Origin: Myxococcales bacterium
Lineage (GTDB): Bacteria > Myxococcota > Bradymonadia > UBA7976 > UBA1532
Assembly: GCA_020633515.1 (NCBI GenBank)
Contig: JACKDM010000004.1
Span: forward strand, 1 to 64,000
Length of the DNA: 64,000 bases
Direction: 5' to 3'
The position numbers and the translations under genes were made by a program. Each line of letters opens with the position of its first letter. Within the stretch, counting starts at the first letter, position 1. Under the pieces are notes generated by a model. The model searched no databases, was not told the DNA's origin, and saw nothing but the letters and a program-made list of their open reading frames with translations. Below, piece by piece: positions 3-26,934 of this stretch.

Positions 3-3000
3 GGCGGCGCGGTGCCGCTGCGCTTCGACGCGGCGCTGACGGCGGCGCTCAAGGCGCTCGGGGCCGACGCGGGCGCGACGCTCTACACGGTGCTGCTCGG
101 CGCCTGGGCGGTGCTCTTGCAGCGCCACGGCGCGGGCGACGATCTGGTCATCGGCGCGCCGGTCGCGACGCGGGGCCGGCCCGAGCTGCGCGGCCTGCTC
201 GGGCTGCTGGTCAACACGGTGCCGCTGCGGGTGACGCTCGCCGGTGACGACGGCGCGCCCGACTTCCGGGCGGTGCTCGCCCGGCTCGGCGAGGTCGTGC
301 GCGAGGCGCTCGCCGCGCCCGAGGTGCCGCTCGGCCCGCTCTGCGACGCGCTCGGGATCGAGCGCTCGCCGGCCCGCCACCCGCTGTTCCAGGTGATCTT
401 CGACCTGCACGTCACCACCACGCTGCCGCCCGGCGTGCCCGTCGAGGCCGACTCGCTGCGGCAGCACGTCGCCGAGGGCACCGCCAAGTTCGAGCTGAGC
501 CTGATCCTCGCCGAGCACCCCGAAGCCGACGGCGCGACGATCGCGGGGCGCATCGAGTACAGCGCCGACCTCTTCGACCACGGCACGGTCGCGGCGATGG
601 CGAGCCAGCTCGAGGCGCTGCTGCGCGCGGTGGCCGCCGACGCCGCGCGGCCGATCGACCGGCTGCCGCTGATAGATCCGGCGACCCGCGCCGAGATCAT
701 CCGCTCGCGGGGGCGGAGCCCGTTCTTGATGGCGCCGCCGGGCGCCTACGCCGAGACGGTGGTCGCGCAGTTCGCCGCGCAGGCCGCCGCGCGCCCCGAC
801 GCGGTCGCGGTCTCGATGCTCGACGGCGACGGCGCGCGCACCACCCTGAGCTACGGCGCGCTCGACGCGCGCGCGAACCAGGTCGCGGCGGCGCTCATCG
901 CGCGCGGCGCGGGCCCCGGAGAGCCGGTGGCGCTGTGCCTCGAACGCTCACCGGCGCTGGTGATCGGGCTCGTCGGCGTCCTCAAGGCGGGCGCCGCCTA
1001 CCTGCCGATGGAGCCGGCGTGGCCCTGGCCGCGGATGCGCGCGGTGATGCGCGACGCGGGCGTGCGGCTCGCGGTGACCGAGGCCGAGCTGCTCGCGGCG
1101 TTCGACGAGACGGTCGAGGCGGCGGTCGTGCTCGACCGGCAGCGGGGCGCGGCGCGGTGCGCGGTGCTCGACGCCGCCGCGCTCGACGCGCTCCCGGCGA
1201 CCGCGCCCGATCGCCGGCCGGCGCCCGAAGACCTCGCGTACTGCATCTACACCTCGGGCTCGACCGGCGAGCCGAAGGGCGTACAGGTCACCCACCACAA
1301 CGTCATCCGCCTGTTCGCGGCCTCGGCGGCGATGTACCGCTTCACCGCCGACGACGTGTGGAGCGGCTGCCACGCGTTCACCTTCGACGTCTCGGTCTTC
1401 GAGCTGTGGGGCGCGCTCGCCCACGGCGCCGAGCTCGCGCTCGTGCCGCACCTCACGACCCGCTCGCCGCGCGACCTGCACCGGGTCCTCGCCGCGAGCC
1501 GGGTGACCATGCTCAGCCAGACCCCGTCGGCGCTGGCGGTGCTCGCGCCGGTCGACGCCGAGGCCGAGATCCCGCTGCCGCTGCGCGCGGTCGTGCTCGC
1601 CGGCGAGGCCTTCGAACCGCGGCGCTTCGCGGGCTTCCTCGCGCGCTATGGCGAGCGGGCGCTGGTCGTCAACATGTATGGGATCACCGAGACGACGGTG
1701 CACTCGACCTGGCGGCGGATCACGCTCGCCGACGCGGCGCAGAGCCACTCGCCGATCGGGGCGCCGCTCGCCGACACCCGGCTGCGTCTGCTCGACGACC
1801 ACCTCGAACCGGTGCCCACCGGGGCGCCGGGTGAGCTGTGGGTCGGCGGCGACGGCGTCAGCCTCGGCTACCTCGGGCGGCCGGCGCTGACCGCGGCGCG
1901 CTTCGTCGACGATCCCTTCGACGAAGGGCGGCTCTACCGCAGCGGCGATCGGGCGCGCTACCGGGCCGACGGCGAGCTCGAATACCTCGGGCGGCGCGAC
2001 GCGCAGGTCAAGATCCACGGGTTCCGGGTCGAGACGGGCGAGATCGAAGCGGCGCTGATGAGCAACGACGCGGTGCGCGACGCCGCCGTCGGCGTACACC
2101 GCGACGCCGACGCGGGCGGCGACCGGCTCGTCGCCTGGGTGGTCGCCGACCAGCCGCTGACCGCCGCGACGCTCCGGGCGCACCTGCAGCGCACGCTCCC
2201 CGACTACATGCTGCCCCACGCCTTCGTGATGCTCGACGCGCTGCCGCTGACCGCCAACGGCAAGCTCGACCGCCGCGCATTGCCCGCGCCCGACAGCCGC
2301 CGCCCCGCGGTCGCCGCCGGCTACCTCGCCCCCGAGGGCCCGCTCGAAGCCGCGCTCGCGGCGCTCTGGCAGGGCGTGCTCAAGCTCGACCGCGTCGGCC
2401 GCCACGACAACTTCTTCGAGCTCGGCGGTGACTCGATCAAGGGCGCGATCATGGTCGAGCAGCTCACCCGACAGAGCGGCGCGATCATCCCGGTGATGGT
2501 GCTCTTCGACGTGCAGACCATCGCCGGCTTCGCCGACTGGCTGACGCAGAACACGCCCGAGGGCGCGCAGCGCATGGCGGCCGGCGGCGGCAGCGTGCCC
2601 GGCGCGACGCTCACCGCGGGCGGCGCGATCACCGCCGACGACATCGCCCGGTTCCGGGCGCTCGTGCCGCCCTTCGCGCCACGCCGGCCCACGGTTCGCG
2701 GCCGCCGGGTGATCATCGTGCTGACCCCGCCCCGCTCCGGCTCGACGCTGCTGCGCGTCATGCTCGGCGGCCACCCGGCGCTGTTCTCGCCGCCCGAGCT
2801 CGAGCTGCTCGGCTTCGCCACCCTCGCCGAGCGCGCCGCGACGCTCTCCGGGCGGCTCAAGCACTGGCGCGAAGGCACGGTGCGGGCGCTGATGGCGCTC
2901 TCCGAGCTCGACGCCGACGCCGCCTTCGCCGAGATGGCCCGCCTCGAAGCCGAAGACCTCGACGTGCCCGGCTTCTACGCGCACCTGCAAGCGCTCATGG

Positions 3001-4358
3001 GCGCGCGCACCCTCGTCGACAAGACCGCGAGCTACCCGCTCGACGTCGCGGTCATGGCCGCCGCCGAGCGGTACTTCGAAGACCCGCTCTACATCCACCT
3101 GCACCGCCACCCGGTCGACGGCGTCTCCTCGTTCCTGACGGCGCGCATCGACGACATGGGCTTCTTCCGCGCCGAGCACCCCTTCGACCGCGCGCAGCTC
3201 GCCGAGCTGGTGTGGACGGTCAGCCACCAGAACATCGCGCGCTTCCTCGCGACGGTGCCCGCCGAGCGGCAGATCCGGGTCGGCTACGAGGCGCTGGTGC
3301 AGGACCCGGTCGGGCAGATCGAGCGGCTGTGCCGCTTCATCGGCGTCGAGGTCGCGCCCGCGATGCTCGACCCCTACACCGACAAGACCGCGCGCATGAC
3401 CGACGGCGTACATCCCGACGCCGGCTGGATGCTCGGCGACATCAAGTTCCACCACTACACCCGCATCGAGGCGTCGTCGGCGCGCCGCTGGCAGAAGGCG
3501 GGCGTCGACGTGAACCTCGGCGCGCCGACCTGGGACGTCGCCGAGGCGCTCGGCTACCGCCGCCCGGTCGAGCGATCGCCGCTGCTCGTCCCGCTCGCCG
3601 AGGGACCGGCCGCCGAACACGCGCCGCTGTGGTGCGTGCACCCGGTCGGCGGCCACGTCTTCGCCTACCGCGCCCTCGCCCGCGCGCTCGGCGCCGAGCG
3701 CCCGGTCTACGGGATCCGCGCCGAGGCGTTCGCCGGCGTCGACGACCCGGCGACCACCATCGAGGAGATGGCCCGCCGCTACCTCGGAGCGATCCGCGCC
3801 GCGCAGCCGTCCGGGCCCTACCTGCTCGCCGGCTGGTCGCTCGGCGGCGTCGTCGCCTACGAGATGGCGCAGCAGCTCACCGCCGCCGGCGAGGCGGTCG
3901 GGGCGCTGGTGCTCATCGACAGCGCCACCCCCGGCCGCGGCGCCGCCGGCCCGGCCGCGCTCGTCGGCGACGACCCGCTCGCCTGGATGGGCCTCGACCT
4001 CGCCGGCCTCGGCGGCGAGAGCTGCCGCGCTGATCGAGGCGATGCGCCGGATGAGCCCCGCCGAGCGACGCGCACCTGCGCGAGCGCATCGAAGGCTCCG
4101 AGATCGCCCGGCGCCTCGGTGAAGCGCAGCGCGCGCGGCTGGTGCAGGTCTTCCGCGACAACCTCGCCGCGCTCGCCGGCTACCGACCCGCGCCCTACCC
4201 CGGCGAAGCCACCCTCCTCCGCGCCGCCCGCCGCGTCGACCCGAGCCGCGACACCGACGGCTGGGGCGCGCTCGTCGCCCGCCTCCGCGTGCTCCGCGTC
4301 CCCAGCCACCACTACTCGATGCTGCAACCCCCACGTCGCCGAGTCGCGCGCCTCGTGA
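3..4358 (+). CDS. Nonribosomal peptide synthetase, 5'-partial: C(partial)-A-PCP-sulfotransferase-thioesterase
   Basis: The reading frame is open through the left window edge, so the N-terminus is missing. The first 225 or so residues are the C-terminal half of a condensation domain (HPLFQVIFDLH). The adenylation domain runs to about 2290, with YTSGSTGEPKG near 1250, YGITETT near 1680 and NGKLDRR near 2265. Pocket residues aligned by eye to GrsA are D, V, F, S, V, A, M, V, H; I cannot assign a substrate. The carrier Ser lies in LGGDSI near 2433. A PAPS-dependent sulfotransferase domain follows (PRSGSTLLR near 2730; 3'-phosphate region IHLHRHPVDG), then a type I thioesterase (GWSLGG near 3832). 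ST-TE pairs are known from CurM, where they cause sulfation, hydrolysis and decarboxylation to a terminal alkene. The TE is frameshifted after about 4020; an intact copy would continue to about 4396, over the next gene's start. Confidence 0.9.
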   Translation, partial: GGAVPLRFDAALTAALKALGADAGATLYTVLLGAWAVLLQRHGAGDDLVIGAPVATRGRPELRGLLGLLVNTVPLRVTLAGDDGAPDFRAVLARLGEVVREALAAPEVPLGPLCDALGIERSPARHPLFQVIFDLHVTTTLPPGVPVEADSLRQHVAEGTAKFELSLILAEHPEADGATIAGRIEYSADLFDHGTVAAMASQLEALLRAVAADAARPIDRLPLIDPATRAEIIRSRGRSPFLMAPPGAYAETVVAQFAAQAAARPDAVAVSMLDGDGARTTLSYGALDARANQVAAALIARGAGPGEPVALCLERSPALVIGLVGVLKAGAAYLPMEPAWPWPRMRAVMRDAGVRLAVTEAELLAAFDETVEAAVVLDRQRGAARCAVLDAAALDALPATAPDRRPAPEDLAYCIYTSGSTGEPKGVQVTHHNVIRLFAASAAMYRFTADDVWSGCHAFTFDVSVFELWGALAHGAELALVPHLTTRSPRDLHRVLAASRVTMLSQTPSALAVLAPVDAEAEIPLPLRAVVLAGEAFEPRRFAGFLARYGERALVVNMYGITETTVHSTWRRITLADAAQSHSPIGAPLADTRLRLLDDHLEPVPTGAPGELWVGGDGVSLGYLGRPALTAARFVDDPFDEGRLYRSGDRARYRADGELEYLGRRDAQVKIHGFRVETGEIEAALMSNDAVRDAAVGVHRDADAGGDRLVAWVVADQPLTAATLRAHLQRTLPDYMLPHAFVMLDALPLTANGKLDRRALPAPDSRRPAVAAGYLAPEGPLEAALAALWQGVLKLDRVGRHDNFFELGGDSIKGAIMVEQLTRQSGAIIPVMVLFDVQTIAGFADWLTQNTPEGAQRMAAGGGSVPGATLTAGGAITADDIARFRALVPPFAPRRPTVRGRRVIIVLTPPRSGSTLLRVMLGGHPALFSPPELELLGFATLAERAATLSGRLKHWREGTVRALMALSELDADAAFAEMARLEAEDLDVPGFYAHLQALMGARTLVDKTASYPLDVAVMAAAERYFEDPLYIHLHRHPVDGVSSFLTARIDDMGFFRAEHPFDRAQLAELVWTVSHQNIARFLATVPAERQIRVGYEALVQDPVGQIERLCRFIGVEVAPAMLDPYTDKTARMTDGVHPDAGWMLGDIKFHHYTRIEASSARRWQKAGVDVNLGAPTWDVAEALGYRRPVERSPLLVPLAEGPAAEHAPLWCVHPVGGHVFAYRALARALGAERPVYGIRAEAFAGVDDPATTIEEMARRYLGAIRAAQPSGPYLLAGWSLGGVVAYEMAQQLTAAGEAVGALVLIDSATPGRGAAGPAALVGDDPLAWMGLDLAGLGGESCRADRGDAPDEPRRATRTCASASKAPRSPGASVKRSARGWCRSSATTSPRSPATDPRPTPAKPPSSAPPAASTRAATPTAGARSSPASACSASPATTTRCCNPHVAESRAS

Positions 4359-4385
4359 ACGCCGCGCTGCCCGCAGGAGCCACCG

Positions 4386-9766
<5,381 letters not shown>

Positions 9767-9770
<4 letters not shown>

Positions 9771-11047
9771 CCGACCTGCTCCCCAAGCGCTGGTACAACG
9801 TCCGCGCCGACATCCCCTTCGAGCTCCCCGAGACCCGCTTCGCCGGCGGCAGCCCCCCCGCCCAGGACGGCCCGATGACGAGCGCCCGCCTCGTCGCGCA
9901 GAACCTCTCCCCCATGCCCTGGCTCCGCATCCCCGACGAGGTCCGCGCCGCCTACGCGCTCTGGCGCCCCACCCCGCTCCGCCGCGCCCGCCAGCTCGAA
10001 GCCGAGCTCGGCACCCCCGCCCGAATCTACTACAAGTATGAAGGCACCAGCCCCACCGGCACCTTCAAGGTCAACACCGCGCTCGCCCAGGCCTACCTGC
10101 TCAAACAGGACGGCGTGCGCCGCCTCACCACCCAGAGCAACGACGGCTACTGGGGCGCCTCGCTCGCCTTCGCCTGCCAGCGCTTCGGCCTCGACCTCTC
10201 GGTCTACCTCCTCAAAGGCACCCTCGACGCCCAGCCCGCGCGCCGCCTCCTCATGGAGAGCTTCGGCGCGACGGTCGAAGACGGCGCGCCCACCGTCGGC
10301 GAAGCCATCACCCGCTCCCTCGAGCTCGCCGTGCGCTCCGGCGGCCGGATCCGCTACGCCACCGGCTTCCTCGTCGACTACGTGCTCCTCCACAACACCG
10401 TCATCGGCGTCGAAGCCGAGGCGCAGATGCAGCTCGACGGCGCCCGCCCCGACGTCGTCTTCGCCTGCGCGAGCAGCGGCGCCAACTTCGGCGGCCTCTG
10501 CTTCCCCTTCCTCCGCCACGTCCTCACCGGCGAAGCCCGCACCCGCTTCGTCGCCGTCGAGTCCGCCGCCTGCCCCTCGATGACCCGCGGACGCTACATC
10601 TACGAGCACCCCGACCGGGAAGGGCTCAGCCCCCGCTTCAAGATGTATACTGTCGGCCGCCGCTACCGGCACCCCGAAGGCCACTACGGCAGCCTCATCT
10701 TCCACGGCCTCTCCCCCCTCGTCAGCGCGCTCGTCGCCGAGGGCCAGGTCGAACCCTGCGCCGTCCGCCAGACCGACGCCTTCGCCGCCGGCCTCCGCTT
10801 CCTCCGCGCCGAAGGCATCCTCCCCGCCCCCGAGTGCGCCCACGCCGTACACGCCGCCATCGACGAAGCCATCCGCTGCCGCGAGACCGGCGAACAGAAG
10901 ACCATCCTCATCGGCATCTCCGGCCACGGCCTGCTCGACACCCGCGGCTACCGCGCGCTCCTCGATGGCACCCTGCGAGACATCATCCCCACCGACGAAG
11001 ACATCGCCGGCTGGCTCGAAGGCACCGAAGCCGACGACGCCACCTGA
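9767..11047 (+). CDS. TrpB-like PLP-dependent enzyme (tryptophan synthase beta-like fold)
   Basis: The 426-residue protein resembles the TrpB2 type of tryptophan synthase beta chain: WRPTPLRRARQLEAELG, then YYKYEGTSPTGTFKVNTA with the expected PLP lysine in TFKVNTA. The segment that carries the catalytic Glu in TrpB (ETGAGQ) reads QSNDGYWG near 10132, so Glu is Gln here. That argues against ordinary tryptophan synthesis and for a repurposed beta-replacement or lyase reaction on a pathway intermediate. There is no trpA beside it. The ATG overlaps the PKS stop (ATGA), indicating translational coupling. The gene is intact, unlike its neighbours. Fold is confident; reaction unknown. Confidence 0.85.
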
Positions 11048-11076
11048 CCGCGCCACAAACTGATCGGAGACCCACG

Positions 11077-12838
11077 ATGAAGCCCACCCCCATCAGCGAC
11101 CGCACCTTCGACGTCGTCATCGCCGGCGGCGGCCTCGCCGGCCTCACCCTCGCGCTCCAGCTCCGCCAGCGGCTCCCCGCCGTCAGCGTCGCCGTCGTCG
11201 AACCCATCCCCCGCCCGCTCCCCCCCGGCGCCCACAAGGTCGGCGAGTCGAGCGTCGAGCTCGGCTCCGTCTACCTCCGCCAGCTCGGGCTCCGTGACTA
11301 CCTGCACAGCCAGCATGTCATCAAGCTCGCGCTGCGCTTCTTCCCCGGCGGCGGCGAGCTCCCCCTCCACGCCCGCGACGAGCTCGGCCCCGCCCGCGAG
11401 CCGCTGATGGTCAGCTACCAGATGGACCGCGGCAAGCTCGAGACCGACCTGCGCGCCATGATCGAGGCCGCCGGCGCGACCCTCTACGAAGGCGCCAGGT
11501 CACGCCGTCGAGCGCGCCCCCGGTGACACCCCCCACCCTCCTCGTCCGAACAAGGCGACCCGAGCCACCCTCACCGCCCGCTGGATCATCGACGCCACCG
11601 GCCGCCGCGCGCTCCTCCGCCGCCCTCGACGGCACCACCGCCGCACCACCCACCTCCGGCAACGCCGGCTGGATTCGCGTCACCGGCAAGCTCGACATCT
11701 CAGCCATGGTCGATCCCAGCCAGCGCGAATGGTTCCGAGCGCCCCATCGCCGAACACCGCTGGCGCTCCACCAACCACCTCATAGGCGATGGCTACTGGG
11801 TCTGGCTCATCCCCTCGCCGACAGCCCCGCACAGCGTCGGCATCGTCGCTTCCACGAACCCGCTACCGACTTCGACCGGGTCCGCTCCTGCAAGCCTGCC
11901 TCGGCTTCCTCGACGAGTTCGAGACCCGTGCTCGCCCGCTCCCTCCGCGACTGGCTCGACAACGGCGAAGCTCCTCGACTTCAAGTGCCTCAGCGCTACA
12001 GCTACGGCGTCGACCGCTGGATGTCCGCCGACCGCTGGGCCGTCGTCGGCGAAGCCAGCGCCTTCTCGACCGCTCTACAGCCCCGGCACCGACTCCATCG
12101 GCCTCAGCAACCTTCGCCGTCGAAGCCATCGCCGCCGGCTTCACCGGCGGCGACCTCGCCCACGCGTCGAAGAGATGCACGCCCAGCTCGACGCGCTCGT
12201 CACCATGGCTACTTCTTCGACGGCACCGGCGGCGTCTACGGCCACGCCCGCGCCATGACCGCCAAGTACTACTGGGACAACTTCATCTACTGGAACTATC
12301 ACTGCCAGCACTTCGCGCAAGGCATCCACCGCCTCACCGGCGAAGAGCTCGAAGCTCTTCATCCCATTGCGCGAACGCTTTCTTCGCGCTCAACACCTGG
12401 TGCCAGATCCTCCTCCGCCGCTGGGCCGGGATCGAGCACCACACCCCCGGCAGTCAGTTCATCTCCATCCCCGCTTCCCCTCGGTGCTCATCCAGAGCAA
12501 CCTCGCGATCCTCAACGAGATGGACCCCGAAGGCACCTTCGACTACATGACCCTCCGGTCAGGCAGGCCGAGCGCATGCTCATCCGAGCTCGTGCTGCGC
12601 TACGTCCTCACCGAGATCGGCCCCGAGAAGGGCGCCGCCCTCATCGAAACCACCGGACTGCGTGACTAGGACCTCCGCTTCCCCCGGCGCGTCGAAGCCG
12701 AAGCCCTCGACGAGGCCGCCCGCCGCAAGCGCCTTCGATGCCATCGGCCGCGACGTCGCCGATCACATCTATCCCTTCCCCCGCCACCCCGACGCGCGCC
12801 GCCGCCGCGCCTCGTCCTCGCCAGAACGCACCGCCTGA
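11077..12838 (+). CDS. Flavin-dependent halogenase-like FAD oxidoreductase, frameshifted
   Basis: ATG follows GGAGACCCACG. The N-terminus has a Rossmann FAD motif ([17 protein letters not shown]) and [12 protein letters not shown], typical of FADH2-dependent halogenases. Downstream, in shifted frames, are WIIDATGR near 11585, YWVWLIP near 11793 (the WxWxIP halogenase signature), [10 protein letters not shown] near 12030 and [13 protein letters not shown] near 12070. C-terminal parts read [18 protein letters not shown] near 12270 and [16 protein letters not shown] near 12755, ending at TGA 12836-12838. The frame shifts near 11500, 11650, 11740, 11850, 11965, 12070, 12360, 12475 and 12555 mostly fit lost bases. 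Assigning it as a true halogenase rather than a related monooxygenase rests on WxWxIP alone. Its place in the cluster suggests tailoring of an aromatic or polyketide intermediate. Confidence 0.75.
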
Positions 12839-17757: not shown

Positions 17758-18641
17758 ATCAACCGATCCTCGTCGCCGGCGCGAGCGGCTTCGTCGGCCG
17801 CGCGCTCGTCGCCGCCGCCGCCGCCCGCGGCCACGCCGTGCGCGCGCTCGCCCGCCGCCCGCACCCCGCGCCGCCCGGCGTCACCGCCATCACCGCCGAC
17901 GTCAACGACTTCGAGGCCACCGCTCGGGCCCTCGACGGCGCCGCCGCCGCGATCTACCTCGTACACGGCCTCGCCGACCCCCGCTTCCGCCGCCGCGACC
18001 TCGACGCCGCGCGCCGCTTCGGCGCCGCCGCCCGCGCCGCCGGGGTCGAGCGCATCGTCTACCTCGGCGCGCTCGGCGACGCCGACGGCGACCGCACCCC
18101 CCACGTCACCAGCCGCCGCGAGGTCGCCGCCGCGCTCCGACTCCGCGGGATCCCGGTCACCGAGCTGCGCGCCGCCGTCGTCGTCGGCCGCGGCAGCGCC
18201 GTCATCGAGCTCTTCCGCCGCCTCGCCGCGCGCTCGCCCCTGCTCGTCGCGCCGCACGGCTCCGCCCGGCGCGTGCAGCCGATCGCGCTCGCCGACGCCG
18301 TCGCCGCGCTCCTCGCGCCGCTCGCCGATGACACCCCGGGCGATGCCACCCACGAGATCGGCGGTGACACCGTGCTCACCTGGCATGCCTTCATGCAGCG
18401 ATGCCTCCAATGCCTCGGATCCCATCGCCGCGTCCATGCCATGCCGATCGCCACTCCGCGGCTCTCGGGGCTGTGGATGCGCGCGTTCGGCGGCATGCCG
18501 CTGACGATGGGCACCGAGTTCATCCGCAACCTCGGCCACGACGCGATCGCGCGCGACGACCACACCCGCGCGCTGATCGGCCGCGCGCCCACGCCGCTCG
18601 ACCGCGCGCTCCGCGAGGCGCTGGTGGATCATGTGGGGTGA
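17754..18641 (+). CDS. Atypical SDR, NmrA-like NAD(P)-binding protein
   Basis: GTG start overlaps the SDR stop (GTGA). The 295-residue protein has the atypical SDR signature VAGASGFVGRALVAA and a typical VERIVYLGALGD strand, but no clear YxxxK catalytic pair. Such proteins act as NAD(P)H-dependent reductases, isomerases or redox sensors. Its place between SDR and P450 with overlapping ends suggests a catalytic role in the same pathway, but this is not shown by the sequence. Confidence 0.8.
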   Translation: MNQPILVAGASGFVGRALVAAAAARGHAVRALARRPHPAPPGVTAITADVNDFEATARALDGAAAAIYLVHGLADPRFRRRDLDAARRFGAAARAAGVERIVYLGALGDADGDRTPHVTSRREVAAALRLRGIPVTELRAAVVVGRGSAVIELFRRLAARSPLLVAPHGSARRVQPIALADAVAALLAPLADDTPGDATHEIGGDTVLTWHAFMQRCLQCLGSHRRVHAMPIATPRLSGLWMRAFGGMPLTMGTEFIRNLGHDAIARDDHTRALIGRAPTPLDRALREALVDHVG

Positions 18642-18648
18642 GGTCCTC

Positions 18649-20064
18649 ATGGCCGACCGTCGCTTCGGCGACGTCGACATCCGCGGCCCGGCGCGGCTGC
18701 CCGGGCTCGGCTGGCGCGGCAACGTCATGCGCTTCTTCGCCGATCCCTTCGCCGGCCTCACCGCGCTCGCCCGCCGCCCCGAGCGCCTCATCGCCCTCGC
18801 CGACCGCCACCCGGCGTTCCTCTGTGCCTTCGGCCCCGAGCACAACCACCGCCTGCTCACCGATCGGACCGCCTTCGATCCCTTCATCACCCCGCTCCGC
18901 GCCCCGCCCGGCAGCGCCTTCGCGGTGCTCGTCGACAACCCGTTCACCACCACCGGCGAACGCTGGCGATGCCATCGCCGCGCGATGGTGCCCCCGTTCC
19001 ACAAGAAGCGCGTCGCCCGCTACCGCGATGCCATCGTCGATCTCATCGAAGCCATGCTCGCCGAGTGGCGGATCGGCGACGTCGTCGACCTGCCCCATGC
19101 CCTGCAGGGCCTCACCCTCTCGGCGATGATGTCGGTCGTCTTCGGGCTCGACGTGCGCCACAGCCGGCAGGAGACCGACGCCTTCCGCGCGCGCCTCACC
19201 GATCTGCTCGACGCCATCGGCCACCTCGGCGCGATGTTCTTCCCCGTCGATCTGCCCGCGACCCCCTACCGCCGCATGCGCCGCCTCGCCGAGCGCTTCG
19301 TCGCCGAGGTCGGCGCGCTCGCCGAACGGCGCCGCAGCGAGGCGGCCGAGGACGTGCTGAGTGATCTCATCGAAGCCCACCGCGCCGCTGGCGCCGACGA
19401 CCCCCGCGCGCTCGTCGGCGAGATGTTCTCGCTCCTGACCGCCGGCCACGAGACCACCTACGCCGCGCTCTCCTGGGCGCTGTTGCTCCTCGCCGCCCAC
19501 CCCGCCGTGCTCGGCGACCTGCACGACGAGCTCCGCGCCACCCTCCGCGGCGCCGCGCCCACCGTCGCCGAGCTCGGCGCGCTGCCGCTGCTCGACCGGG
19601 TCGTGCGCGAGGCGCTGCGGCTGTTGCCGACCGCGCCGTACGGGGCGCGGATCACCCGCGAAGAGACCACGCTCGGCGGCCATTCGCTGCCGCGCGGCGC
19701 GGTCGTGATCTACAGCGCCCATGTCACCCACCACCTCCCCGAAGTCTTCGACCGCCCGCGCGTCTTCGACCCCGAGCGATGGCATCACGCCGAGCCATCA
19801 CCCTATGCCTACCTGCCCTTCGGCGCCGGGCCGCGCACCTGCCTCGGCGCCGAGTTCGCGCTGATGGAGATGAAGCTGACCCTCGCCTGCCTGCTGCAAC
19901 GCTTCTGGCCCGCGCTCGTGCCCGGCCGCCGCGTCGACTGCCGGCTGCGGATCACGCTGCGCCCGCACCCGGGGCTGTGGGTGACGCTCTGCCGCCCCGG
20001 CAGCCGCCTCCCGGCGCCGCGGCTGCGGGGCACGATCCACGACGCGGTCGCGCTCGCCGGGTGA
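18649..20064 (+). CDS. Cytochrome P450
   Basis: The start is placed at 18649 because GGTGAGG lies 5 nt upstream; an ATG at 18631 overlapping the previous gene is the alternative. P450 hallmarks are all present: I-helix AGHETTYAAL, K-helix EALR, and heme loop FGAGPRTCLGAEFA with the Cys ligand. The C-helix GERWRCHRRAM is also typical. The length, about 470 residues with no obvious membrane anchor, fits bacterial fatty-acid or terpenoid hydroxylases. It needs a ferredoxin and reductase encoded elsewhere. It is the last gene of the tailoring run and converges on the acyl-AMP ligase with a 26 nt gap. Confidence 0.92.
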   Translation: MADRRFGDVDIRGPARLPGLGWRGNVMRFFADPFAGLTALARRPERLIALADRHPAFLCAFGPEHNHRLLTDRTAFDPFITPLRAPPGSAFAVLVDNPFTTTGERWRCHRRAMVPPFHKKRVARYRDAIVDLIEAMLAEWRIGDVVDLPHALQGLTLSAMMSVVFGLDVRHSRQETDAFRARLTDLLDAIGHLGAMFFPVDLPATPYRRMRRLAERFVAEVGALAERRRSEAAEDVLSDLIEAHRAAGADDPRALVGEMFSLLTAGHETTYAALSWALLLLAAHPAVLGDLHDELRATLRGAAPTVAELGALPLLDRVVREALRLLPTAPYGARITREETTLGGHSLPRGAVVIYSAHVTHHLPEVFDRPRVFDPERWHHAEPSPYAYLPFGAGPRTCLGAEFALMEMKLTLACLLQRFWPALVPGRRVDCRLRITLRPHPGLWVTLCRPGSRLPAPRLRGTIHDAVALAG

Positions 20065-20090
20065 AGCGGCACGCGGCGCCCCCACCGCGA

Positions 20091-22010
20091 TCACACCCCG
20101 AGGCCATCGAGCTCCGCGAGCAGCGCCGCGCGCGCCTCGTCGTCGCTCATCCGCGCGATCGCCGCCGGCGACACCTCGCCGACCGGCGTCGTCACCGCCG
20201 CCGCCGCCCGCTCAGTCGGCGCCGCGCCGTCGACGAGGTACGCGGCGAGCGCGTCGGGCGTCGGATACAGCCACGTCACCGTCGCCGGCACCGAGCGCCC
20301 GAGCAGCGCCGAGAGCGCCTCGGCCTTGCGCACCGCGAGCAGCGAGTCGACCCCGGCGTCGACGAACGCGCGATCGGGCGCCACCCGCCCCCCGTCGGCG
20401 AGCTCGGACCGCAGCCAGCCGACGATCCAATCCCGCAGCGCTTGCCGCGTCCACCGCCGCGCCGGCGCCGCCGCGGCGGCCTCGGCGATCAACGCCCGCT
20501 CCCGCTCGCGCACCGCCCGCCGCAGGATCTTGCCGGTGCGCCCCTTCGGCAGCGCCTCGACGACCCGGATCAGCGTCGGCCGCTTGTAGCCGGCGAGGTG
20601 CTCGGCGACGAACGCCCGCAGCGCGCCCACGTCGACCGTCGCCCCCCGCCGCGGCGCGACCTGCGCGTGCACCACCTCGCCCATCGTCTCGTCGGGCACC
20701 CCCACCACCGCCGCCTCGCCGACCGCCGGGTGCCGGTACAGCACGCCCTCGACCTCCGCCGGGTACACCTTCATGCCACCGCAGTTGATCATGTCCTTGA
20801 GCCGATCGGTGATGAACAGATAGCCATCGGCGTCCCGCCGCCCCAGATCGCCCGTGCGCAGCCAGCCATCCCGCAGCGCCGCCGCCGTCGCCGCCGGCTG
20901 CCCCCAGTAGCCGAGCATCACCCCCGGCCCCCGCACCCACAGCTCACCGACCGCGCCCACCGGCACCTCGACCCCGCGCTCCGGGTCGACCACCCGCACC
21001 TCCACCCCCGCGTGCGGCCGCCCGATCGAGCCGGGGCGGTACTCGCCCACCGCGTTGTAGGCCACGCTCGGCGACGCCTCGCTCAGCCCGTACGCCTGAT
21101 TGACGATCACCCCCGTCGCCGCCCGCCACCGATCCTCGATCTCCCGCGGCAGCGGCGCCGCCGCGCAGTAGCAGTAGCGCAGCGAGCGCAGCGCCTCGCC
21201 CACCTCGTGCTGCAACAGCACGATGAAGGTCGTCGGCACCCCGAAGAACATCGTCACCCGCTCCCGCGCGATCGTCGCCGCCGTGCCCCGCGGGTCGAAG
21301 CGCCGCTCGAGCGCCACCGTCGCCCCGACCGAGAGCGCCGAGTTGAGGATCACGTTGAGCCCGTAGCAGTGGAACAGCGGCATGAAGAGCGCGACCCGAT
21401 CGGCCGCGGTCATGCCCACCTCGGCCGCGTTGACCCGCACGTTGCTCACCACGTTGTGATGCGAGAGCGTCACCCCCTTCGGCCGCCCCGTCGTGCCGCT
21501 CGAGAAGACGATCACCGCCGGCCGATCCCCATCGACCGCCGCCACCGCCGGCGCCGGCCCCGCGTCTGCCGGCCCCGCTTCGGCCGCCCCCGCTTCGGCC
21601 GCCCCCGCATCTGCCGGCCCCGCGCCATCCGCCCCGAGCACCACGAGCGCCGCCCGCGCCCGCAGCGCCGCGTCGAGCCCATCCGCGACCGCCGGCACCG
21701 TCACCACCACCGCCACCCCCGCCTCGGCGAGCATGAAGTCGAGCTCCTCCGCGGTCAGCGCCGGGTTGAGCGGCACCGCGACCGCGCCGAGGCGCAGCGC
21801 CCCGTAGAACGCCACCGGGAACGCCGGCACGTTCGGCAACAGCAGCCCCACCCGATCACCCGCCGCCACCCCCGCCGCCCGCAGGCGGGCCGCGACCTCG
21901 CCCGCGCGCGCCCACAGCGCGCCGTAGGTGAAGCGCGCGCCCTCGAAGACGAGCGCCGGGTGCTCGGGCATCCGCGCGGCGGTCTCACTCAGCAGCTCGC
22001 AGGCGTTCAT
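20091..22010 (-). CDS. Acyl-AMP ligase fused to an acyl carrier domain (starter-loading enzyme)
   Basis: The 639-residue protein has an ANL adenylation domain (FSSGTTGRPKGVTLSHHN, YGLSEAS, WLRTGDLGRRDADGYL, GMKVYPAEVE, GRTGKILRR), then a carrier domain with Ser in DAGVDSL near 20345. It ends with an Asp/Glu-rich helix (MSDDEARAALLAELDGL) like PKS C-terminal docking helices. GAGGAG precedes the ATG. This didomain typically activates a carboxylic acid and loads it on its own carrier for hand-over to a KS or C domain. An Ala/Gly/Asp/Pro-rich insertion (about 21540-21630) sits between the N-terminal subdomain and the nucleotide-binding core. It is transcribed against the rest of the cluster. Confidence 0.9.
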   Translation of the reverse strand: MNACELLSETAARMPEHPALVFEGARFTYGALWARAGEVAARLRAAGVAAGDRVGLLLPNVPAFPVAFYGALRLGAVAVPLNPALTAEELDFMLAEAGVAVVVTVPAVADGLDAALRARAALVVLGADGAGPADAGAAEAGAAEAGPADAGPAPAVAAVDGDRPAVIVFSSGTTGRPKGVTLSHHNVVSNVRVNAAEVGMTAADRVALFMPLFHCYGLNVILNSALSVGATVALERRFDPRGTAATIARERVTMFFGVPTTFIVLLQHEVGEALRSLRYCYCAAAPLPREIEDRWRAATGVIVNQAYGLSEASPSVAYNAVGEYRPGSIGRPHAGVEVRVVDPERGVEVPVGAVGELWVRGPGVMLGYWGQPAATAAALRDGWLRTGDLGRRDADGYLFITDRLKDMINCGGMKVYPAEVEGVLYRHPAVGEAAVVGVPDETMGEVVHAQVAPRRGATVDVGALRAFVAEHLAGYKRPTLIRVVEALPKGRTGKILRRAVRERERALIAEAAAAAPARRWTRQALRDWIVGWLRSELADGGRVAPDRAFVDAGVDSLLAVRKAEALSALLGRSVPATVTWLYPTPDALAAYLVDGAAPTERAAAAVTTPVGEVSPAAIARMSDDEARAALLAELDGLGV

Positions 22011-22030
22011 CGCATCTCCTCGTCGGCTCG

Positions 22031-22065
22031 GATCCGCCGCTGATCATACAAACCCGCGGCGGATC
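22031..22065 (-). promoter_or_regulatory. Inverted repeat around a -10 box upstream of the acyl-AMP ligase
   Basis: GATCCGCCGC (22031-22040) and GCGGCGGATC (22056-22065) are perfect 10-bp arms around a 15-nt, AT-richer spacer. On the minus strand that spacer contains TATGAT (22043-22048), a good -10 box; the -35 is weak. Transcription would start about 25 nt before the ATG at 22010. The layout looks like an operator for a dimeric repressor. Confidence 0.55.
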
Positions 22066-23745: not shown

Positions 23746-24974
23746 GCGGCCCTCCGCTTGCCGGCCATCTGCATGCGATGCTCGATGGGGATGGGATGCG
23801 CGGGCAGCAGCAGGTTCCAGTAGATCCAACGGAATGCCATCTTGCCCCAGTGATTGGCGTGGCTCTCTTCGAGCAGGGTGAACGGTCCGATGCCGGGCAG
23901 CGGGAAGCGACCGGGCAATGGCTCGGTGTCATAGGCGAAGTCGATGAGGATCGCCTTGTCGTGCCCGGTCTCGATGAAGCAGTTGGCGTGGCCGTCGAAC
24001 TCGGGCGCGAGCGGGCGGCCGCCGAGGTGGCGCAGCACGTTGTCGACGAGCACCTCGGCCTGGAAGTGCGCCACCGAGCCCGCCTTCGAGGTCGGCAGAT
24101 CGGTGCAGTCGCCGAGCGCGAAGATGTCTTCGTGAACGCGGCTCTGCAGCGTGTGCCGGTCGGTGGGCAGGAACCCCGCCGCGTCCCCGAGGCCGCTCGC
24201 TTCGATCGCGGCGTCGCCGCGGTGGGCGGGCACCATCACGAGCAGGTCGTAGTCGAGCGCGCGCCCATCGTACGCGCTCAGCCGGCGGGCCGCGCCGTCG
24301 ACCGCGTCGGCCTGGAAGTCGGTGACGAGCCCGATGCGCCGCTCGGCGAGCAGATGCCCGAGCGCGCGGGCGGCGACCGGCTTGGTGAAGGCGCCGTCGA
24401 GCGGGGTCGCGAGCACGATCTCGACGCCGTCGCGCAGGCCGCGGCCGGTGAAGAAGGCATCCGCGAGGAAGGCGAGCTCGAGCGGCGCGACCGGGCACTT
24501 GATGGGCATGTCGGCGACGTCGATGACGAGGCGGCCGCCGGTGAAGCGATCGAGCGCCGGGGCGAGCCGGGTGGCGCCGGCGAGGGTGTAGAAGTCATGC
24601 GCGGTCTCGCCCCAGCCGGCGCCGAGCAGCCCGGGGGTGGCCTCGTGGGCGAGGCGGGCGCCGGTGGCGACGATGAGCAGGTCGTAGCGCAGGCGCTCGC
24701 CGCCGGCGAGGTGGACCACCTTGCCGTCGGGGTCGACGCGCTCGACGGCGGCGAGCACGAGGCGGGCGCGGGATGGCAGGAAGCGGCGCCGCGGCCGCAC
24801 GAGGTCCTCGGGGCGCTCGTGGCCGAACGGCACGAACAACAACCCCGGCTGGTAGACGTGGGCGTCGTCGCGGTCGACGACGGTGAGGTGCCAGTCGGCG
24901 GGCAGGCGGCGGGCGAGGTGGTTGGCCATGATGGTGCCACCGGTGCCGGCGCCGAGGATGACGAGGTTCTTCAA
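23742..24974 (-). CDS. Sulfide:quinone oxidoreductase-like FAD flavoprotein
   Basis: TTG at 24974 is chosen because GGAGG lies 7 nt upstream and the FAD motif follows at once ([20 protein letters not shown]). The 410-residue protein has [45 protein letters not shown] with a conserved SQR-type Cys, the second FAD motif [18 protein letters not shown], and a C-terminal amphipathic stretch. Membrane-peripheral SQRs oxidise sulfide or persulfide and reduce quinone. It is the first gene of the operon with DUF1641-DsrC and DsrE. The number of catalytic cysteines was not checked against crystal structures, so another sulfane substrate is possible. Confidence 0.87.
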
Positions 24975-25284
24975 AGACGCCTCCGAGTCGCTCGCGGGGC
25001 GGGTTTGCAACGCGCGTACCCGCGGCCGGGAGCCCGGCTCGCGCGGGCCGCGGGCGCTGAACGTCACCGCGCGGGGACATCGACCCCGGGCCATGTCACC
25101 GGATCGGCGTGATGCCTTCGCGGCGCGCGCCGGCGCAAGATCGCAGAATCTGCGCCGACGACTGCGGACTCTGGCGCTCCAACGCGCGTCGCCGATCGAA
25201 CACCGGATACGCACCCGCCGCAGCGTTCGACCCGGACGGTGCCGGGGAACACTTCATCGCCGCATCTCATCGGAGACATCGACC
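24975..25284. other. Divergent intergenic region between sulfur operon and collagen-like gene
   Basis: No gene is supported here. It contains an inverted repeat with arms CCCGCGGCC (25019-25027) and GGCCGCGGG (25046-25054) enclosing a small hairpin GAGCCCGGCTC (25030-25040), just upstream of the SQR start. No confident -10/-35 pair was found for either gene. Confidence 0.5.
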
Positions 25285-26934
25285 ATGCGTCATCCCATCT
25301 GGATCAGCCTCGCGCTCGCGCTCGGCTCCGTCACGCCGGCCGCCGCCCAGGTCACCCCCTACAGCGACCGCAACGCCTGGCTGCTCGCGGTCGCCGGCCC
25401 GATCGAGACCGAGACCTTCGACGACGCCGCGCTCGGCGTCCTCGCCGCCAACGTCGAGCATCCGGTGGGGGCGGTGTTCGTGACCCATGACAAGCCCGCC
25501 GGCACGAGCGGCGACGTCCGCATCAACAATGGCACGACCGACGAGGTCTTCGATGGCACGCGCTACCTTCGGCTGAGCGTCGACGGCCCCGATGGCATGG
25601 TGACCGTGCGGTTCCCCGAGCCGGTCAGCGCGTGGGGGGCCGAGCTCGCCGGGGTCACCGCCGTCGGCGACCCGATGCGGGTGGCGATCGGCGATCACAC
25701 CGAAGACTTCCGGCTGCGCACCGGCAGCGAAGCGTTCCTCGGCTTCGTCTTCGACACGCCGGTCGAGAGCGTCACCTTCTACGATCCCTTCGTCAGCACG
25801 TCCTTCGTCGGCATCGACGACCTGAGTTATGTCCCGATGCGGGTCACGAGCCCGGCGCCGGGCCGGATCGTCGACGTGGGCGAGGCGGTCGACTTCGCGG
25901 TGCTCACCGACGCGGCCGATGACAGCGTGCTGTGGTACTCGAACATCGACGGGCTGATCGGGACCGGGGCGAGCGTCACGAGCGACGCGCTCTCGGAGGG
26001 GATCCATGCCATCACGGTGCTCGACGACACATACAGCCACACCCTGACCCTCGCCGTGCTCGCCCCGCTGCGCGGCGAGCAGGGGCCGCAGGGCGAGCAG
26101 GGGCCGCAGGGCGCGCAGGGGCCGCAGGGTGAGCAAGGCATCCAGGGCGAGCAGGGCGCGCAGGGGCCGCAGGGTGAGCAGGGTCAGCAGGGCATCCCCG
26201 GCGAGCAGGGGCCGCAGGGTGAGCAAGGCATCCAGGGTGAGCAGGGGCCGCAGGGTGAGCAAGGCATCCAGGGTGAGCAAGGCGAGCAGGGGCCGCAGGG
26301 CGAGCAAGGGCCGCAGGGTGAGCAAGGTATCCAGGGTGAGCAAGGTATCCAGGGTGAGCAAGGTATCCAGGGTGAGCAGGGGCCGCAAGGCATCCCCGGC
26401 GAGCAGGGGCCGCAGGGTGAGCAAGGCATCCCCGGCGAGCAGGGGCCGCAAGGCATCCAGGGCGAGCAGGGCGAGCAGGGGCCGCAGGGTGAGCAAGGCA
26501 TCCCCGGCGAGCAGGGGCCGCAAGGCATGCCCGGCGAGCAGGGGCCGCAGGGTGATCAAGGCATCCCCGGCGAGCAGGGGCCGCAAGGCATCCAGGGCGA
26601 GCAGGGGCCGCAGGGTGAGCGAGGCATGCCCGGCGAGCAGGGGCCGCAGGGCATCCAGGGTGAGCGCGGCCCCCAGGGCGAAGGCTGGGACGACGCGACC
26701 CGGGTCGAGCTCTATGCCCAGCTCGCCGAGCTCGCCCTCCAGACCGAGTGCCAGCGCATCATCATCGTGTTGCAGGCGACCGACACGCTGCGGCTCCGGC
26801 GCAGCCCCGGCGGCGGGGTCGCCAAGCTGCTCGTCGACCGCGGCGCGCTCGCCGGCCTCGGCCTCGACGTCGCCCGGGTCCAGTCCTGCGGTCCGCTCGT
26901 CTTCGGCGCGCCGGTGAGCTTCACCGCCTTCTGA
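25285..26934 (+). CDS. Secreted collagen-like (Gly-X-Y repeat) protein
   Basis: ATG follows GGAGACATCGACC. A signal peptide ([17 protein letters not shown]) leads into a 245-residue domain of beta-rich character ([38 protein letters not shown]) resembling carbohydrate-binding or PEP-CTERM-type jelly rolls. About 68 uninterrupted Gly-X-Y triplets follow (26074-26685), built from [12 protein letters not shown] and GMP. A 83-residue C-terminal domain with two Cys ([16 protein letters not shown]) may be the trimerisation head. There is no LPXTG or membrane anchor. It is likely a secreted or surface trimer. Confidence 0.88.
26074..26685 (+). repeat. Collagen Gly-X-Y tandem repeat tract
   Basis: 612 nt of 9-bp units, about 68 Gly-X-Y triplets, with higher-order 18- and 27-bp repeats such as GGTGAGCAAGGCATCCAG. 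Y is nearly always Gln or Pro and X is Glu, Pro or Ile, with almost no Lys. Near-identical units make copy number prone to slippage and to assembly collapse. Confidence 0.95.

Follow-up and report, generated by a model that had tools for sequence, protein, structure and literature searches.

What does a sulfotransferase (ST) domain do when it stands between a peptidyl carrier protein (PCP) and a thioesterase (TE) at the end of a non-ribosomal peptide synthetase (NRPS)? The question is raised by positions 1 to 64,000 of contig JACKDM010000004.1 of a Myxococcales bacterium (assembly GCA_020633515.1), here called the window, which opens with the gene for such a module. A first-pass annotation proposed that the module performs a sulfation-driven decarboxylative release giving an enamide. 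Our analysis does not favour this proposal, since the TE is ordinary and the ST family often occurs in the middle of assembly lines. We lean, at a little over even probability, towards an ST that acts in cis on the β-hydroxyl of a carrier-bound threonine-like residue, followed by ordinary release that leaves the residue O-sulfated.

The synthetase occupies an open frame at positions 3-4358 of the forward strand, and the 5' part of its condensation (C) domain lies beyond the window edge. Domains were called by Pfam on the translation of frame 12-4358. The end of the TE was compared with the relative P0001 (1723 residues, from a 95.5-kb contig), which is 98% identical over the ST-TE region and has an unbroken TE. 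The module consists of the following parts:

21..698, forward strand: C domain, 5' part outside the window (PF00668, residues 4-229, profile 231-455 of 456)
771..2264, forward strand: whole adenylation (A) domain (Pfam, specificity code, class comparison)
771-1874, forward strand: AMP-binding (Pfam, residues 254-621)
2040-2264, forward strand: AMP-binding_C, C-terminal subdomain of the A domain (Pfam, residues 677-751)
2352..2543, forward strand: PCP (PF00550 PP-binding, residues 781-844)
2703..3566, forward strand: ST domain of the CurM/Ols family (Pfam Sulfotransfer_3, residues 901-1115)
3624..4034, forward strand: in-frame part of the TE, with the GWSLGG nucleophile and the LIDS Asp (PF00975, residues 1205-1317, profile 2-115 of 226; PDB type I TEs)
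4142..4396, forward strand: C-terminal piece of the TE with the His motif, in another frame (open reading frame with no Pfam match of its own; fits the end of P0001 by eye)

The A-PCP-ST-TE order given by the first-pass annotation is correct as far as it goes, but the module also contains a C domain and is thus C-A-PCP-ST-TE. The frame breaks inside the TE: in-frame TE text runs to about position 4034, the second piece (4142-4396) lies in another frame, and the first frame regains TE-like text near its own end, as judged by eye against P0001. The adjoining polyketide synthase (PKS) is likewise split over several frames, and sequencing or assembly indels are therefore the most likely cause of the break. 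The earlier statement that the frame is shifted only in the TE holds for the NRPS gene itself but not beyond it, where the PKS is broken as well.

The specificity code of the A domain, DVFSVAMVHK, is shared with the relatives P0001 and P0003, and close variants occur in P0002, P0004 and P0007. The code agrees with the earlier remark that M, V and H of the pocket are those of the threonine code. Over the specificity region, the A domain has a mean identity of 46.2% to 27 A domains with a Thr code that are followed by an ST, and of 43.4% to two A domains with a Thr code but without an ST. The next class, with a Tyr code and followed by an ST, reaches 31.4%, and all remaining classes are lower. 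Because the A domain is nearest to the Thr-code domains, a threonine-like β-hydroxy amino acid is our best guess for its substrate. A β-hydroxyl on the PCP-bound residue, which the enamide proposal presupposed, is likely from the class comparison, although the code itself is not a textbook one.

The best PDB matches of the ST are those of CurM, from the curacin A pathway (4gbm, 181 bits), and of Ols, a cyanobacterial olefin synthase (4gox, 180 bits), and the next match scores 17 bits. A protein search for relatives gave 765 matches at E<=1e-3 among 7991 scored proteins, and a genome scan gave 402 confirmed stretches carrying the ST; the best 120 of the 765 proteins and 80 of the 402 stretches (loci) were kept. 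An alignment of 211 STs shows the following functional positions in the window ST:

2733..2753, forward strand: 5'-phosphosulfate loop R908-S-G-S-T-L-L914 (R908, G910 and T912 in 211 of 211 aligned STs, S909 in 206 of 211)
2796..2798, forward strand: E929, putative catalytic base (210 of 211; its counterpart in an alignment with TPST2 is the second Glu of GEE)
3021..3023, forward strand: K1004, putative catalytic Lys of the VDK motif (211 of 211)
3105..3131, forward strand: 3'-phosphate motif R1032 and S1040, spacing 8 (both 211 of 211)

E929 presumably plays the role of the aligned Glu in TPST2, and K1004 is assumed to act as the catalytic Lys does in TPST2. The spacing of eight between the 3'-phosphate Arg and Ser is that of the SULTs. 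Loss of such residues would have spoken against the enamide proposal; the loop for 3'-phosphoadenosine-5'-phosphosulfate (PAPS), the Glu, the Lys and the 3'-phosphate Arg and Ser are all kept. CurM and Ols have Asn at the positions of K1145 and H1056 of the window ST. The window ST shares 39.3% identity with that of CurM and 39.6% with that of Ols. Averaged over 41 STs that have an A domain further along, the value is 48.6%, and over 13 cyanobacterial STs of loader type it is 48.3%; the group of 18 STs classed as glycerate-type also takes in six that merely have no readable A domain.

The cyanobacterial STs bear on the fate of the sulfate. In the suomilides of Nostoc sp. KVJ20, NMR showed 2-O-methylglyceric acid 3-O-sulfate, whose methylation and sulfonation the study's authors attribute to the O-methyltransferase (OMT) and ST domains of BslA (PMC13122637). 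Locus L023, from the same strain, encodes an OMT, a PCP and an ST, then C-A(Val/Ile-type)-PCP, followed in the next frame by another C-like domain, a layout that fits BslA of the suomilide/banyaside (Bsl) synthetase. The ST encoded there shares 48.6-49% of its residues with the window ST and 42.5% with that of CurM. Position 3 of glycerate corresponds to the β carbon, which in threonine bears the hydroxyl. Because the KVJ20 ST is nearer to the window ST than those of CurM and Ols are, and the suomilide keeps its β-sulfate, relatedness and architecture lead us to expect β-O-sulfation with the sulfate kept and ordinary release in the window module. Sulfated glyceric acid occurs in both suomilides and dysinosins (PMC13122637, PMC6520454); the dysinosin synthetase (DysB) has an ST domain in its glycerate-loading part (PMC6520454), and the cyanopeptolin oci synthetase combines an ST domain with a glyceric-acid domain (PMC2533009). 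These STs, of which the Bsl-like one was compared by sequence and those of DysB and Oci by description, resemble the window ST in acting in cis within an NRPS. They differ in that the line begins with FkbH-loaded glycerate as the substrate, with no A domain before the ST. The window ST directly follows a PCP and belongs to the same family as the Bsl-like ST of L023, but C-A-PCP precedes it in place of a glycerate loader with an OMT. In its mode of action, the window module thus appears closest to the in-cis glycerate STs found in synthetases of cyanobacterial protease inhibitors, transplanted to a threonine-type module that ends the line.

The wider family shows where such STs stand. In almost all of the best 120 of the 765 proteins, precomputed domains place the ST together with PF00975; the named proteins among them come from Acidobacteriota, myxobacteria, proteobacteria and others, and the 80 loci are spread over many phyla. 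A tree of 211 STs, built in a single FastTree run and weakly supported at many nodes, was labelled by profile search with the domain after each ST (120 TE, 76 C, 13 neither, plus CurM and Ols). A C domain thus follows 76 of the 196 labelled STs, and parsimony counts 22 changes between STs followed by a TE and STs followed by a C domain. The window clade groups, with support of 0.90, with one Ser-module and one Thr-module ST, each followed by a C domain. Therefore, release is not the function of the ST itself, and since the family often sits where nothing is released, an ST beside a TE does not imply decarboxylation. Three loci (L005, L007 and L016) encode TubC-C-A(Thr)-PCP-ST-C-A(Gly-type)-PCP-TE by Pfam and code, and the Thr-ST-Gly order with a terminal TE motif is found in 12 of the 80 loci, from Delftia, Thalassomonas, Desulfamplus, Bacteroidetes, Verrucomicrobia and others. 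The line [C-A(Thr)-PCP-ST]-[C-A(Gly-type)-PCP-TE] in unrelated phyla is apparently one widely transferred pathway. In locus L076, a Ser-ST module is followed by a further C-A-PCP. Locus L039 (1-15530) contains three consecutive modules that end in an ST: a PKS module with ketosynthase (KS), acyltransferase (AT), dehydratase (DH), ketoreductase (KR) and acyl carrier protein (ACP) domains, KS-AT-DH-KR-ACP-ST, then C-A(Tyr-like)-PCP-ST and C-A-PCP-ST. The first of these STs groups with CurM and Ols (support 1.0), and thus even an ST of the CurM clade can end a protein without a TE.

Some features of individual loci were also observed. The Thr-ST-Gly line occurs in L003, L004, L005, L007, L008, L009, L016, L028, L030, L031, L036 and L058, and PKS modules adjoin it in L003, L005 and L007, the loci checked. 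L005 and L007 come from Delftia sp. PS-11 and Thalassomonas sp. RHCl1, which can be cultured. In L062, L065, L068 and L077, of Calditrichota type and from a Caldisericaceae metagenome-assembled genome, the ST follows Val/Ile-like A codes, and in L062, L068 and L077 the next code is Gln-like.

The TE is of type I (PF00975) with a Ser-Asp-His triad, the His lying in the piece after the frame break, and its sequence relatives in the PDB are TEs of NRPS, PKS and fatty acid synthases (FAS). In 109 of the 120 relatives, those with tails of 180-420 residues, the nucleophile is Ser in 107 (Cys in two), and Asp is present in 103 and His in 107. The TE of CurM has a Ser-His-Glu triad with a sulfate-binding Arg. 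It is absent from the 47 PDB sequence matches of the window TE part at E<=0.1 and from the 45 matches of the P0001 TE at E<=10, and it is by these searches that the two types are set apart. The TE of locus L043, an intact relative with the same ST-TE arrangement and a textbook Thr code, was modelled from only seven sequences (pLDDT 79.8). Its best fold matches are AB3403, 7crn, Vlm2, NocB and FAS TEs; the CurM TE is not among the 50 rows of this fold comparison, an absence that excludes nothing. The window TE is thus of the ordinary NRPS/FAS class: it matches PF00975, has Asp in place of Glu and lacks a CurM TE match, which argues against the CurM-style release that the first-pass annotation had envisaged.

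Based on these comparisons, a course of events can be proposed. The window protein would be the last NRPS module of a PKS/NRPS line. Its A domain would load a threonine-type β-hydroxy amino acid onto the PCP, as code and sequence indicate, and the C domain would acylate this residue with the chain delivered from upstream, which is probably the polyketide made by the adjoining KS-AT-DH-KR-ACP module. The in-cis ST, with the family and residues described above, would then move sulfate from PAPS to its presumed target, the β-hydroxyl of the PCP-bound residue. The Ser-Asp-His TE would free the chain, most simply by hydrolysis, to leave an O-sulfated threonine-like residue at the C-terminus. In the family as a whole, the ST may sulfate the β-hydroxyl of a carrier-bound acyl group, and the neighbouring domain, not the ST, would set the next step.

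The codes before the STs lend this proposal mixed support. In the loci, Ser/Thr codes were found in 31 of 54 readable A domains before an ST and in 7 of 87 A domains not followed by one (Fisher p = 1.8e-10); incomplete codes were excluded (16 of 70 and 42 of 129 locus A domains; 17 of 115 and 7 of 18 in the protein set). The not-followed group holds split A domains that are truly followed by an ST, such as one in L003, and the comparison is therefore conservative.

Several observations weigh against the proposal. Kinship and transfer among the loci make this p value overstate independence, and the enrichment is not significant in the protein set (19 of 98 against 0 of 11, p 0.21). Of the 98 readable codes before the ST in the best 120 proteins, 24 belong to the Ser, Thr and window-like classes and 11 to the Tyr class, which leaves 63 outside all of them. 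Because so many codes fall outside these classes, the target hydroxyl is not uniform, a β-hydroxyl target is not general in the family, and part of the family may be doing something else. Prior hydroxylation of non-hydroxy residues by a P450 partner is unsupported: a P450 motif was found in none of the 80 loci, many of which are short, and other oxygenases were not sought. The window code itself differs from the textbook threonine code. No PAPS-making genes were seen among the window open reading frames scanned, in a search that was not exhaustive. We know of no Thr-module ST with an established product. The Bsl ST step is a proposal of its own authors (PMC13122637), and the CurM ST shares 42.5% identity with the L023 ST but 39.3% with the window ST, so that the KVJ20 case is not on the window's side alone. 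The open-licence literature searched, as far as its excerpts go, describes glycerate, PKS and SulM cases and no ST on a Ser or Thr module; excerpts on lyngbyapeptin, epifadin, engineered synthetases and cyanobacterial halogenases likewise mention no ST on an amino-acid module, and a literature search for sulfated threonine lipopeptides gave no pertinent result.

The enamide proposal begins with the same sulfation of the β-hydroxyl, after which the TE would hydrolyse the thioester, and CO2 and sulfate would leave together to give an N-alkenyl amide. It draws on the CurM/Ols family of the ST, on the Thr-like A domain and on the adjacency of ST and TE, as in CurM and in HlaB of the haliamide pathway (PMC6274090). 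HlaB, from a myxobacterium, is also part of a PKS/NRPS hybrid with a C-terminal ST-TE, proposed to form a terminal methylene; this ST-TE comes after a PKS module, and the TE is reported to be CurM-like, with 37% identity to the CurM TE (PMC6274090), whereas the window TE differs from the CurM kind in sequence and has Asp, not Glu, in its triad. The ST-TE of CurM and Ols works on a carrier-bound β-hydroxy polyketide, while in the window module the carrier is a PCP that bears an amino acid, and the ST is 39% identical to theirs, compared with mean identities above 48% to the A-domain and loader groups; outside the window clade the nearest STs are the Ser and Thr ones followed by C domains. An enamide would require that an ordinary TE had gained CurM-type activity, or that CO2 and sulfate were lost spontaneously, and we regard this outcome as decidedly unlikely. 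We are equally doubtful that a Ser-Asp-His type I TE and an in-cis Thr-directed ST carry out a CurM-like decarboxylation to an N-propenyl-type enamide; if they do, sulfation-driven chain release would have arisen a second time, and in a widespread form.

The sulfate could instead serve as a leaving group, for β-elimination to dehydrobutyrine or for ring closure to an oxazoline or β-lactone, or to a β-lactam in the Thr-Gly lines. This is chemically reasonable, and the Gly-type module after Thr-ST in 12 of the 80 loci would offer an amide nitrogen that could attack the activated β-carbon. A single C domain that follows an ST, that of L005, was compared with the PDB; its best matches are Txo2, Txo1 and TycC, which does not support a dehydrating C domain, and the suomilide keeps its β-sulfate (PMC13122637). 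In the monobactam system of sulfazecin, SulM/SulN, sulfonation also takes place in an NRPS line just before TE release; there the ST acts in trans on nitrogen, the module is for Dap, and the β-lactam TE has a catalytic Cys (PMC11298585), whereas the nucleophile of the window TE is the Ser of GWSLGG. Loss of the sulfate by these routes is unlikely in our judgement, though worth keeping in mind. A target in the upstream acyl chain, and not in the amino acid, would account for STs after Val/Ile-like A codes (L040, L041, L059, L062 and L068) and for the PKS modules near L003, L005 and L007, with a KR seen in L003 and L007. The enrichment of Ser/Thr codes in the loci, not significant in the protein set, speaks against such a target, as does the DH of the PKS beside the window module, which would remove the β-hydroxyl if active; we consider it very improbable.

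Downstream of the module, the following genes lie in the same direction:

4386..9770, forward strand: PKS module KS-AT-DH-KR-ACP, in several frames (Pfam pieces)
9767..11047, forward strand: TrpB-like pyridoxal phosphate enzyme, same direction (PF00291; NF009057 458.5 bits, cut-off 366)
11077..12662, forward strand: flavin-dependent halogenase-like gene, frame-broken, weakly assigned (PF04820 26.6 bits, cut-off 21, for the N-terminal piece; later pieces without a Pfam match)

Frame breaks occur all through the PKS and halogenase region (4386-12665), which suggests assembly indels and not true pseudogenes. The TrpB-like enzyme has TQSNDGYWG at the place of the TrpB motif ETGAGQ, and may supply the module with an unusual amino acid. 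About 8-10 kb past the PKS, positions 18577-22043 hold a P450 on the forward strand and a fusion of an acyl-AMP ligase with a carrier protein (20091-22010, reverse strand), which are candidate cluster members. A protein with collagen triple-helix repeats (PF01391, 118 bits) is encoded at 24856-26931.

The ST of the window belongs to a large class that stands behind Ser, Thr, Tyr and other modules in the parts examined. If the sulfate stays, many predicted lipopeptides would be anionic sulfate esters, heavier by about +79.96 Da. If it leaves, the class would provide a general way to dehydro, cyclic or enamide ends. Either way, the genome-mining rule that an ST beside a TE signals an alkene is unsafe.

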